Positions 22,181-25,786 of a stretch of 64,000 nucleotides of DNA are shown piece after piece. Below the pieces are notes generated by a model that did not search any database, was not told where the DNA came from, and saw only the letters and a program-made list of their open reading frames with translations. The stretch is taken from positions 1 to 64,000 of the forward strand of contig JAJRQI010000053.1 of assembly GCA_024280335.1 (NCBI GenBank). Reading direction: 5' to 3'. Origin of the DNA: Deltaproteobacteria bacterium. Its GTDB lineage: Bacteria > Desulfobacterota > Desulfuromonadia > Desulfuromonadales > Geopsychrobacteraceae. A program made the translations under genes and the position numbers. How positions within the stretch are numbered: the first letter of the stretch is position 1; every line of letters starts with the position of its first letter.

Positions 22181-22321
22181 GTAACTATTCAGCACATCCC
22201 GCCTTCGGCACTCTGGCGGCGTTGCTGTGCTGCTCAAATGCTCACATAACCATTGTATGCTCCGCTTCTGCGCTGCTCGCGCCTTGCCAGAGTACCAAAT
22301 TCGGGCGTGCTGAATAGTTAC
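22181..22321. mobile_element. MITE-like element, copy A
   Basis: The 141-bp element is bounded by perfect 15-bp terminal inverted repeats, GTAACTATTCAGCAC and GTGCTGAATAGTTAC. The interior is also an imperfect palindrome (cactctggc ... gccagagtac). It has no coding capacity. A near-identical copy in the opposite orientation lies at 24024-24163, on the other side of the glutamate-cysteine ligase gene. A solo inverted end, gtgctgaatcgttac (22159-22173), is separated from the left end by seven A residues. Confidence 0.8.
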
Positions 22322-22370: not shown

Positions 22371-22545
22371 TTAAGCAAGAAAGGAGGTACGATGTAACCT
22401 TGTTTTTATCAACCATCCGACTGCCACACCGAACCGTTGATGTCAGCAACTCTATCGGGATTCACCAGGGAAAAATACGTGGCGTCGCGTATTTGTTTGC
22501 CACCAGAAACACAAAAGTCGACTGCGTAAATACACAGTCGACTCA

Positions 22546-22632
22546 AGCTGTAAGCTGTAAGCTGTAAGCTGTAAGCTGTAAGCTGTTAGCTGTTAGCTGT
22601 TAGCTGTTAGCTGTTAGCTGTTAGCTGTTAGC
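22546..22632. repeat. heptanucleotide tandem repeat
   Basis: About 12 copies of a 7-bp unit are present: agctgta for the first part, then agctgtt. The last copies enter the 3' end of the glutamate-cysteine ligase gene, whose stop codon (22621-22623) and last codons lie inside the array. Confidence 0.92.
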
Positions 22633-23979
22633 ATAATCACAATGTTCGAACAGCAGCGCCAGTTTTTCCTGGCGACTCCCCTGCCAACGGGCCAGTAACC
22701 GCTCCGCCAAGGTCTGTCCGCTGCTGACGATTTCATCCAGGGGCTGCAGGAAGATACTTTCGTCGGCACCACTATTGCCCCGTTGAAACTGTTTTTTCAA
22801 ACTGCTTGCCGCGTAGGGCAAAAGCTCTGCCACCACTTCGCGCAAATTACCGCCACGGAACCGGGTGCGCAAACCATCCCGCCAGGATAATCGGTAAAAC
22901 TGCTCGAAATCAGCCAGATCCATGTCGGCGAAGATCGATTCTACTGCCGCCAGCGCCGCTTCGTCGTAGAGCAGCCCCTTGTAAAAGGCGGCAACCGAAG
23001 CGGTGTGAGCCGGCGGTAAACTATCGGCGCTGCGCACTTCGATCTGCGGCCGCAACCGGACCTCGGGGAACAGGGTCGACAGGTGCAGATCCCAATCCTC
23101 CAGAGTGGCACGCTCCGCTTGCCAACCCGATTCTAAATACTGACGAAAACTAAAACGGCTGCCGGTCAGATCGATCAGTTTATTCTCACGCTGAAGAAAA
23201 TAGAGCGGGACGTCGAGGGCGTACTCGACGAAATCACTGAATCCGGATCCCGCTGCAAACAACCCTGCAATCAAACCGCAACGGTCGGCATCAGTCCGCG
23301 ACCAGATCTCCCCACGCAAGGAGAGAAACCCGCTGGGCCGATCTTCAAGAATCGGCGAGTTGGCAAACAGTGCATAACAGACGGGACTGAGCCACTGTAC
23401 GACGCGCAACTTACGGGCGCAGTCGGCTTCGTCGGAAAAATCAAGATTAACCTGGGTACCGGCCGTCTGTTTCATCATCCGCTGCCCCATATCGCCGGTT
23501 TTCAGCATGTAGGGGCCCATGATACCGTAGCGCGGTTTCGGCAGCCAGGCGATACGCTCCAGCGGGGTGAACGGCTGCGTCCCCAGACCGAGAAACGCGA
23601 GGCCGGTTTCCTGCCCCACCTCGACAATCTGCTGCCGGTAACGGCCCAGATCACGCCAGCTGCAATGGATATCGCAACAGAAGCGACCGGACAGTTCCAG
23701 CTGCCCGCCCGGTTCCAAGGTCACGGAAGAACGTGTCCCCTGTAAACCGATCAGATGCTCACCGGCATAGCTCCCCTGCCAGCCGCCGACCCCTTCCAGC
23801 CGGGCCAGCAAATCACGGATCCGCTCGTAACCAGCCGCCTCACCGGTCTGCCGGTCGACTACCAGTTTTTCCGCTTCCAGCCCGACCCCCCAATCGCAAC
23901 GCGGCCGTGCACCGCGGGCCAGGAAATCGATCAACTGCCGGCGATTCTCTATCGGTTGCTGCTTCGTGCGGTCGGCCAT
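22621..23979 (-). CDS. glutamate-cysteine ligase, GCS2 (plant/EgtA-like) type
   Basis: It probably joins glutamate and cysteine to gamma-glutamylcysteine, the first step of glutathione or related thiol synthesis. The 452-residue product has GVGLEAEKLVVD near the start, TLEPGGQLELSG (substrate/metal site), YGIMGPYMLKTGDMGQRMMKQTAGTQVNLDFSD and LFANSPILEDRPSGFLSLR, characteristic of the GCS2 family found in plants and proteobacteria. No gshB is in the window. The gene sits between two inverted MITE copies and ends inside a heptamer array. SD: GGTGAG before ATG. The exact thiol product is not determined. Confidence 0.9.
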   Translation of the reverse strand: MADRTKQQPIENRRQLIDFLARGARPRCDWGVGLEAEKLVVDRQTGEAAGYERIRDLLARLEGVGGWQGSYAGEHLIGLQGTRSSVTLEPGGQLELSGRFCCDIHCSWRDLGRYRQQIVEVGQETGLAFLGLGTQPFTPLERIAWLPKPRYGIMGPYMLKTGDMGQRMMKQTAGTQVNLDFSDEADCARKLRVVQWLSPVCYALFANSPILEDRPSGFLSLRGEIWSRTDADRCGLIAGLFAAGSGFSDFVEYALDVPLYFLQRENKLIDLTGSRFSFRQYLESGWQAERATLEDWDLHLSTLFPEVRLRPQIEVRSADSLPPAHTASVAAFYKGLLYDEAALAAVESIFADMDLADFEQFYRLSWRDGLRTRFRGGNLREVVAELLPYAASSLKKQFQRGNSGADESIFLQPLDEIVSSGQTLAERLLARWQGSRQEKLALLFEHCDYANS

Positions 23980-24023: not shown

Positions 24024-24163
24024 GTAACTATTCAGCACGCCCTAATTTGGTGCTCTGGCAAGGCGTGAGCAGCGCAGAGGCGCAGCATACATGGTTATGT
24101 GAGTATTTGAGCAGCACAGCAACGCAGCCAGAGTACCGAAGGCGGGATGTGCTGAATAGTGCC
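24024..24163. mobile_element. MITE-like element, copy B (inverted)
   Basis: It starts GTAACTATTCAGCAC and ends GTGCTGAATAGTGCC. The sequence between is highly similar to the reverse complement of 22181-22321 (for example caaggcg-gagcagcgcag, then atggttatgtgag). It lies between the glutamate-cysteine ligase start and the aminotransferase stop. The last three bases of the right end are altered. Confidence 0.8.
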
Positions 24164-24173
24164 CCCCAGTCTA

Positions 24174-25478
24174 TCAGGACTTCAGGTAACCGGTCACGGC
24201 GTTGGCGATGGTAATGAAAATCTGCGTAAACTCTTTTTCGTCCAGTTCCAGCAGGGTAATGCGGAAGCCCCGCTCTTCGGTGCAGAAGGAGGAGATCGGC
24301 ACGGTACAGATTCCGGTTGAAGCGAGCAGATAATAGACAAAACGCTTGTCGGTCGACACCCCCGGCTGGTTGACCAATTCCGCGACCATCTCGCGCACCT
24401 CGGCAAGCTCGATCGGCAGGCTCTGCTCGCTGTTGAGCACGCCCTTTTCAAACACCACGCTCATGTAGAAGGCACCGTTGGTCCGGTTGACCTTGAGACC
24501 AGGAACTTCCTTGAGCAGGTTGTAGGCGATATTTGAATACTGCTCGTAACGGTTGCGCCGCTCGGCGAGATAGGCCGGATATTCAGGATGGCTGAGAATC
24601 AGCGGAATCGCTTTCTGCGGCAGCGTGGTTGAACAGACCTCAACCATCTTCGAATTGAGAATACTCTGCACATACTGGGCGAAGATCGGGTCCTTGTCAG
24701 CGTTGTAGACCTCGATCCAGCCGCAGCGGGAGCCGGGCCAGGGGAGTTCTTTACTGATCCCTTTCATGGCAATGGCCGGCAGGTCGCCGATCAGATCAGA
24801 GATCGGCTTGGTGGCAGTACCGTTGTAGCAGAGGTTATGATAAATCTCATCGCAGATCAGGAACAGATCGAACTCTTTGCAGATGGCGATGATCTCGGTG
24901 AGAATTCGCTCCGGATAGACCGCCCCGGTCGGGTTATCCGGATTGATCATCAGGATCCCCGAAATCGCCGGATTGTATTGCACCGAAAGGCGCAGATCGT
25001 CGATGTCCGGGTACCAGTTATTGTCCGGATCAAGTTTGTAGGTAATCGGCTTCTGGCCGGCGTGGGCACCTTCTGCCGAAGAGTGGGTCGAATAGGTCGG
25101 TGAAGGGCCGATCACCCGCGCCTCACGGCGCAGCAGACCGTAAACTTTCTGGATGGCGTCTCCCAGGCCATTGAAGAAGATGACATCCTCGGCAGTAATC
25201 TGGGTTCTGCCCCGCTGGTTGGTCTGCTCGGCCAGAAACTCACGAGTCGCCAACACCCCCTTGGTGGCACAGTAGCCGTAGGAGCAATCCTGCATGGTCA
25301 GATTGGAAACGATCTCTTTCATCCAGACCGGGATTTTCTCACCTTTGGCAATCGGGTCACCGATATTTTCCATATTGGTCTTGATGCCGAGCTTATTCAG
25401 TTTTTCGGCAATCTCGACAATCGCGCGGATTTCGTAGGTCAGCTCACCGGCACCGATATGAACAATGTTGTTACGCAT
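24174..25478 (-). CDS. class I/II PLP-dependent aminotransferase, probably alanine-related
   Basis: The 434-residue fold-type I aminotransferase has NPDNPTG at 179-185, CDEIYH with D210/Y213, the PLP lysine K243 in GISKELPWPG and R251. It belongs to the broad aspartate/alanine aminotransferase superfamily; substrate cannot be assigned from motifs. The start is ATG 25478 with GGAG 9 nt upstream; a TTG five codons earlier overlaps the SD. The 5' leader encodes an Ala-rich peptide followed by a terminator hairpin, which points to control by Ala-tRNA charging and hence to an alanine-forming enzyme. That substrate assignment is inference. Confidence 0.85.
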   Translation of the reverse strand: MRNNIVHIGAGELTYEIRAIVEIAEKLNKLGIKTNMENIGDPIAKGEKIPVWMKEIVSNLTMQDCSYGYCATKGVLATREFLAEQTNQRGRTQITAEDVIFFNGLGDAIQKVYGLLRREARVIGPSPTYSTHSSAEGAHAGQKPITYKLDPDNNWYPDIDDLRLSVQYNPAISGILMINPDNPTGAVYPERILTEIIAICKEFDLFLICDEIYHNLCYNGTATKPISDLIGDLPAIAMKGISKELPWPGSRCGWIEVYNADKDPIFAQYVQSILNSKMVEVCSTTLPQKAIPLILSHPEYPAYLAERRNRYEQYSNIAYNLLKEVPGLKVNRTNGAFYMSVVFEKGVLNSEQSLPIELAEVREMVAELVNQPGVSTDKRFVYYLLASTGICTVPISSFCTEERGFRITLLELDEKEFTQIFITIANAVTGYLKS

Positions 25479-25504
25479 CTGTTGCTTCTCCAATTCAGAT
25501 ATAG

Positions 25505-25537
25505 AAAAAGGCCATGGATTGTGCTGTCCATGGCCTT
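25505..25537 (-). terminator. leader attenuator terminator upstream of the aminotransferase
   Basis: On the minus strand AAGGCCATGGA (25537-25527) pairs with TCCATGGCCTT (25518-25508) and runs into TTTTTC. It lies between the leader-peptide stop codon and the SD of the aminotransferase gene. The 5' arm contains ATGGACAG (25531-25524), which can instead pair with CTGTCCAT at 25589-25582 inside the leader coding sequence, an antiterminator alternative. Confidence 0.8.
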
Positions 25538-25566
25538 CTGTTTATTATTGAATAAACTCGTGCAGT

Positions 25567-25647
25567 TCACCGCTGCGGGTGATGGACAGTCGTCAGGCGT
25601 AAGGTCGCCGCCTGAAACGCTCGTGCTGCCGCTGCTGTTTTCATCAT
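25567..25647 (-). CDS. alanine-rich leader peptide of the aminotransferase
   Basis: A 26-codon frame begins MMKTAAAARAFQAATLRL and ends at TGA 25569-25567. Seven of 26 residues are Ala (codons 5-8, 10, 13, 14). AAAGGGG lies about 10 nt before the ATG. The downstream segment CTGTCCAT (codons 19-22) can pair with the terminator arm. A ribosome held at the Ala codons would leave this segment free, while one reaching the stop would cover part of it. This is the classical geometry of amino-acid attenuation. It is too short for routine gene calling. Confidence 0.7.
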   Translation of the reverse strand: MMKTAAAARAFQAATLRLTTVHHPQR

Positions 25648-25682
25648 CTTGATTGACCCCTTTAACAGAATTTAGAATGTCT

Positions 25683-25711
25683 GAATTATCATAGAGCAAA
25701 AAGCAAGTCAA
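25683..25711 (-). promoter_or_regulatory. sigma-70-type promoter of the leader/aminotransferase transcript
   Basis: Minus strand: TTGACT (25711-25706), then TATGATAATTC with -10 candidates GATAAT (15-bp spacer) or TAATTC (17-bp spacer). The transcript would start near 25676, about 30 nt before the leader-peptide ATG. Confidence 0.6.
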
Positions 25712-25786
25712 ATCTTTTCCCGGAAATCGAGCAGAACAAAAACTCTGTTACACTTTAATCAACCTCATCAACCAGCGGAGAGATGG

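Follow-up and report, generated by a model that had tools for sequence, protein, structure and literature searches.

A candidate alanine-responsive leader-peptide attenuator upstream of a PRK06855-family aminotransferase gene in Desulfuromonadia

What controls the PRK06855-family aminotransferase gene encoded on the minus strand of the window (the whole 64,000-nt stretch of DNA analyzed here), and does the short alanine-rich reading frame ahead of it take part in that control? An initial annotation, made from the letters alone, had placed a promoter-like site, a leader peptide frame, a terminator and a competing RNA pairing upstream of the gene, and direct reading confirms these elements on the minus strand at the positions given for them. 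We consider it very likely that they form a ribosome-mediated transcription attenuator which senses charged tRNA-Ala and controls this AlaA-like aminotransferase, very probably letting the cell switch the gene on when alanine is low. The elements of the locus are as follows.

25711-25706 and 25690-25685, minus strand: promoter-like site, TTGACT and GATAAT with a 15-nt spacer; read directly
25647 (ATG) to 25567 (TGA), minus strand: leader ORF of 26 codons; read directly and conserved in relatives
25630-25626, minus strand: region 1, GGCAG in Ala codons 6-8; from RNAalifold and pair counts in 25 relatives
25594-25614, minus strand: hairpin CAGGCG...CGCCTG within the leader, between regions 1 and 2; from 25 relatives
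25589-25582, minus strand: region 2, the antiterminator strand CTGTCCAT, in leader codons 20-22; pairs with region 3
25537-25505, minus strand: intrinsic terminator; read directly, supported by folding and conserved in 25 relatives
25537-25527, 25526-25519, 25518-25508 and 25509-25505, minus strand: 5' arm, loop (8 nt), 3' arm and T run of the terminator
25531-25524, minus strand: region 3, ATGGACAG, shared between the 5' arm and the loop of the terminator; complementary to region 2
25478 (ATG) to 24174, minus strand: aminotransferase gene, PRK06855/NF005334, fold-type I, 434 aa

The promoter-like hexamers are present as first described, and by eye many relatives show TTGACT...TGTGATAAT-like blocks in the corresponding position, but the spacer is short and the site is absent from the consensus-scan listing for the minus strand. 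The leader peptide, MMKTAAAARAFQAATLRLTTVHHPQR, contains seven alanines, at codons 5-8, 10, 13 and 14. The terminator hairpin is also where it had been placed, although folding gives it 13 pairs instead of the 11 originally counted. Of 200 shuffles of the RNA from leader to terminator, 198 fold less well than the real sequence (z -3.55), and the 8-nt match between leader and terminator has a p value of about 0.005 against 200 shuffles. Because an ORF with at least seven Ala codons arises in 4 of 100 dinucleotide shuffles of the upstream region, the layout is only suggestive in the window sequence alone. We regard the comparative evidence given below as decisive for the reality of the layout. 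Elsewhere in the window, an inverted repeat of about 138 nt (22184-22321 and 24024-24160, 93-96% complementary) surrounds a glutamate-cysteine-ligase-like gene, and the 3' end of that gene carries a heptamer tandem repeat, (A/T)AGCTGT, at 22531-22635.

Upstream sequences were collected from 80 named loci, 30 same-family loci, the window's own among them, and 80 chosen stretches; of 115 loci, 8 without a match to the N-terminus of the gene product and 2 with less than 150 nt upstream were dropped, and 145 unique upstreams were obtained after merging duplicates. The layout was defined as an ORF of 12-60 codons with at least 5 Ala in 14 codons and a terminator after its stop codon. It was found in 83 of 91 unique upstreams from the same order, in 24 of 37 from other orders of the class and in none of 17 from outside the class, and block-shuffled controls gave 0 positives in 725. 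The leader frame is therefore kept within the class, where the aminotransferase family itself is present in 251 of 277 genomes.

Among the loci that miss the layout (8 of 91 in the same order and 13 of 37 in the other class orders), no leader is visible in L035, L038, L045, L050, L168, L188 and several loci of family f25. The miss at L141 is due to a short stretch, and L119, L122 and L025 are threshold misses, the Ala run of L119 and L122 falling just under the threshold. In L095 (G011) the leader lies outside the 420 nt examined, and a covariance-model match (see below) is located 284 nt before the gene. In L144 (G136) a gene has been inserted and the leader is found 1.1 kb upstream, retaining its position at the head of the cluster. 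L199 (G136:C101:43500-45400) has one gene between attenuator and aminotransferase, and the leader there may govern a two-gene unit. The upstream of L024 (Desulfuromusa kysingii) is identical to that of L107. Common to the attenuator-less loci L035, L038 and L050 is a palindromic GAATACTGTATACAGTTT-like site that precedes the promoter-like site, about 170-186 nt before the aminotransferase ATG, and variants of this palindrome can be seen by eye in L168 and L188. It is possibly an operator that took the place of attenuation.

The layout is specific for one gene. We scanned 838,380 nt of the window and related loci for short ORFs having 6 or more Ala in 14 codons. The scan detected 143 such ORFs; a strong terminator comes after 43 of them, and every one of these 43 precedes the PRK06855 aminotransferase gene. 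The same rule applied to other amino acids returned six further ORFs before the aminotransferase (two each for Arg, Gly and Ile) and two elsewhere (one Arg, one Ser). A covariance model built from 25 leaders of the window's family (f1) has hits in 93 of 271 class genomes, with two hits in three of these, and 61 of the 65 matches with a known gene position lie 21-243 nt before the aminotransferase on the same strand. Three off-site matches, in G173, G166 and G067, were considered as other genes under the same leader and rejected, since by eye they resemble ordinary terminators without an Ala leader; the fourth, in G136, is the same leader with the inserted gene.

Alternative RNA pairings were analyzed in an alignment of 25 f1 relatives, from which L111 (a near-copy of L109) and L095 (leader not at the expected place) were excluded. 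RNAalifold, unprompted, paired the Ala-codon GGCAG of region 1 with CTGTC of region 2, a part of the proposed antiterminator strand. The complementarity of regions 2 and 3 on which the initial annotation had built its antiterminator is real, but region 1 had been overlooked. Paired cells amount to 97.6% for 1:2, 98.5% for 2:3 and 98.7% for 3:4, and for each of the three helices the percentage paired and the covariation score, which can rise through relatedness alone among these sequences, were reached in 0 of 500 shuffles. Shifting the partner by 1-3 columns leaves pairing at only 22-59%. Two of five covariation measures are not above shuffles, and many pairs are invariant: 189, 188 and 484 of 500 shuffles were as high in pairs with changes on both sides, and 353, 273 and 500 of 500 in further pair types. 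The 1:2 helix is weak, with 5 bp, and is missing from the minimum-energy fold of the window RNA. One of its pairs has changes on both sides, from G-C to A-U in seven sequences, all close relatives, and this may represent one event. In the CAGGCG...CGCCTG hairpin 81% of cells are paired, with both-side changes at two of six pairs.

A contiguous helix between leader and terminator arm reaches p ≤ 0.05 in 25 of 26 f1 sequences, in 21 of 55 other loci of the order and in 2 of 24 loci of families f22-f25. Leaders without a rule-defined terminator (L025, L080, L133 and L142) were excluded from the helix, duplex and swap tests, and L056 and L123 additionally from the swap test. In the swap test, 0 of 5000 permuted combinations equalled the pairing of leaders with their own terminators over 73 thinned class sequences (z 7.5), and again 0 of 5000 over the 42 thinned loci that belong to the order but not to f1 or f22-f25 (z 5.7). 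No effect was seen in f1 alone, where the core is nearly invariant (z -0.1), or in f22-f25 alone (z 0.9, 895 of 5000 permutations). The 8-bp pairing proposed initially is thus well preserved in the family; beyond it the pairing is not kept as such, but other complementary pairs replace the 8-bp core, clearly in the order and only weakly in f22-f25. The core varies across the class (ATGGACAG, ATGGGCAA, GTGGGCA and others) and the leader changes along with it. Pairs reaching into the terminator loop include GAATTGTCCAT/ATGGACAATTC in L107, TTCACTGCC/GGCAGTGAA in L064 and TCCTTGCCCG/TGGGCAAGGG in L044. Comparing whole-duplex energies between leader and terminator arm had given a weak test, both being GC-rich (37 of 105 at p ≤ 0.05; in the median, 26% of swapped arms were as good), and the contiguous-helix and swap tests took its place.

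The locus thus appears to combine a run of codons for one amino acid in a leader ORF, an intrinsic terminator, a predicted antiterminator and a predicted 1:2 pairing. The transcription start probably lies some 30 nt upstream of the leader ORF. When Ala-tRNA is plentiful, a ribosome translating the leader would pass the Ala codons to the stop codon and cover much of region 2, and the terminator (3:4) would form. When Ala-tRNA is scarce, the ribosome would stall on the Ala codons and disrupt 1:2, so that region 2 could pair with region 3 ahead of synthesis of the 3' terminator arm. With 2:3 formed, the polymerase would read into the aminotransferase gene and alanine would be made. Region 2 spans 12-20 nt before the stop codon and in the window ends 12 nt before it, so textbook ribosome footprints would place much of it under a ribosome at the stop codon but not under one stalled at Ala.

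Equilibrium folding was considered as proof of the switch and rejected. At full length the terminator is preferred in every ribosome state, with a mean probability of 0.88-0.96 over 26 f1 sequences, and the switch must therefore be a kinetic race. While the 3' arm is still missing, masked folding agrees with the footprint argument: the 5' arm is predicted to be held upstream with a mean probability of 0.72 when the ribosome is stalled, 0.59 without a ribosome and 0.26 with the ribosome at the stop codon (26 f1 sequences); the corresponding values for the window itself are 0.53, 0.53 and 0.02. These models suggest that the advantage of antitermination is kinetic only and not one of equilibrium, nor does folding predict strong termination of untranslated RNA.

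A looser rule gave 109 leaders from the 145 upstreams, and 87 of these have an in-frame CGA-GCN, which was used as an anchor. Counted from this anchor, Ala is found at +4 and +5 in 80 leaders each, at +6 and -1 in 63 each and at -2 in 56; +2 and +3 are variable, and Ala at +1 is fixed by the choice of anchor. The Ala codons do not vary freely, as shown by the three non-anchor positions +4 to +6, and the conserved positions are encoded by GCA, GCG, GCC and GCT interchangeably. Ala is encoded in 26 f1 leaders by GCG (100), GCA (96), GCT (10) and GCC (2), and in the 26 aminotransferase genes of these loci by GCC (309), GCG (173), GCT (157) and GCA (97). The bias toward GCA and GCG is strong in f1 only, because GCC makes up 209 of 1038 Ala codons over 105 leaders, and the f1 sequences share ancestry and RNA constraint. 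In genus g65 and L124 (L119, L124, L200 and L202-L207) the leader is built differently, and by eye its Ala codons can pair with a downstream GCCGCC-CTGCT block. L119 and other g65 loci keep the Ala run in a different arrangement, which in most of them reads V-H-[AE]-A-A-A-(A)-R (partly by eye).

One alternative is an arrest peptide, in which nascent A-R-A-x-x-A-A-A stalls the ribosome on a cue other than Ala-tRNA and then works through the same terminator/antiterminator switch. It would account for the frequent R-A-x-x-A-A-A spacing and for the Arg that is conserved before Ala with a single rare codon: 87 of 103 Arg-Ala steps use CGA (25623-25621 in the window), which in six window genes makes up 12 of 241 Arg codons. 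We find it unlikely: Gln or Glu replaces Arg in L092, L093, L096, L099, L101, L102, L106 and L110 and Arg is deleted in L094, in each case with the rest kept, L119 and other g65 loci are otherwise arranged with the Ala run kept, and Ala richness stays where the number and place of the Ala codons vary. The leader CGA is possibly a slow codon or reflects a constraint at the RNA level. A cis-acting RNA, that is, a riboswitch or protein-binding leader whose GC-rich sequence merely resembles an Ala-rich ORF, seems very improbable. Nucleotide conservation is indeed high, with a mean column identity of 75% in 25 f1 sequences, and CGAGCTA is invariant in a separate alignment of 24 f22-f25 sequences that excludes L124, though only its CTA is unbiased since these loci were picked by the CGAG motif; however, the block is bracketed by start and stop codons, length changes within f1 leaders are mostly whole codons, Ala is kept via all four synonymous codons, the reading frame of the CACGAG block differs in L119 and L124, which keep the Ala run, and no Rfam match at the site exceeds chance. 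Chance, an Ala-rich ORF in GC-rich DNA next to the terminator of an upstream transcript, would suit the window alone, given the shuffles with as many Ala codons, and can be dismissed as already contradicted by class-wide conservation, the 43 of 43 layouts before one gene and the absence of positives among shuffled controls.

The original interpretation as ribosome-mediated attenuation largely survives these tests of Ala constraint, leader conservation and alternative pairing. With rather more reserve, we suggest a fuller account which we hold as plausible and tentative: the attenuator may be alanine-specific and ancestral to the window's class (Desulfuromonas and Geobacter relatives), the conserved rare CGA inside the Ala run may act as a brake, the f1 leaders, with almost only GCA and GCG, may mainly read one tRNA-Ala isoacceptor, and attenuation may have been lost in a group of loci including genus g23, where the palindromic operator-like site is found upstream instead.

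The aminotransferase scores 743 bits against NCBIfam NF005334/PRK06855 (cut-off 443), and the second NCBIfam match, an alanine aminotransferase model, is below its cut-off. By sequence, the solved proteins nearest to it are E. coli AlaA (4cvq, E 9e-45) and a putative transaminase (1xi9). From this homology and the leader itself, we infer that alanine may be the product of the enzyme. An alanine dehydrogenase, whose gene has no Ala-rich leader, is also encoded in the genome, so that the PRK06855 enzyme is not the cell's sole candidate route to alanine; an Ala-rich leader was found in none of the six alanine dehydrogenase upstreams looked at. The aminotransferase class I/II profile has a further 16 matches in the genome, of which some are partial. 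In the open-access literature we found no activity data on this enzyme, and no papers on alanine biosynthesis in Geobacter or on MJ1391.

Comparative scans have found candidate leader peptides in Actinobacteria (PMC1262725) and other bacteria (PMC2965389), among them candidates for Trp, Cys, Leu/Ilv and His, sought by the same logic of a short ORF with repeated codons plus a terminator. The word alanine is absent from the main text of PMC2965389, PMC1183508 and PMC1262725. Among the matches listed we found no alanine leader-peptide attenuator in the open-access literature, nor in Rfam 15. The kind of mechanism would be a known one, and its alanine specificity appears new as far as found. According to the theory outlined in PMC1183508, the sensitivity of an attenuator scales with the inverse of control-codon usage, so common codons should be poor sensors. 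Alanine ranks with the most heavily used amino acids, and a class-wide Ala attenuator would be a direct test of this codon-usage theory, with the GCA/GCG versus GCC bias in the window's family and the conserved rare CGA as handles. Such an attenuator would also link alanine supply to an aminotransferase family that is widely conserved but has no functional name.

In Firmicutes, T-box leaders of alaS and further alanine genes respond to tRNA-Ala charging; a T-box binds the tRNA itself and does without a leader peptide. The proposed attenuator would have in common with them the response to tRNA-Ala charging and, unlike them, would act through a leader peptide; it gives no T-box match: in the window no Rfam T-box reaches the gathering score, the matches there being SRP RNA and tRNA, and none is among the four Rfam matches at E ≤ 5 in 25450-25730. 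Ribosome-mediated leader-peptide attenuators control the proteobacterial amino-acid operons trp, his, thr, leu, ilv and phe. The arrangement proposed here resembles these leaders in its leader ORF rich in control codons, its 1:2, 2:3 and 3:4 pairings and its intrinsic terminator directly before the gene, and differs from them in its control by alanine, its short 1:2 helix and the rare CGA inside the control run.
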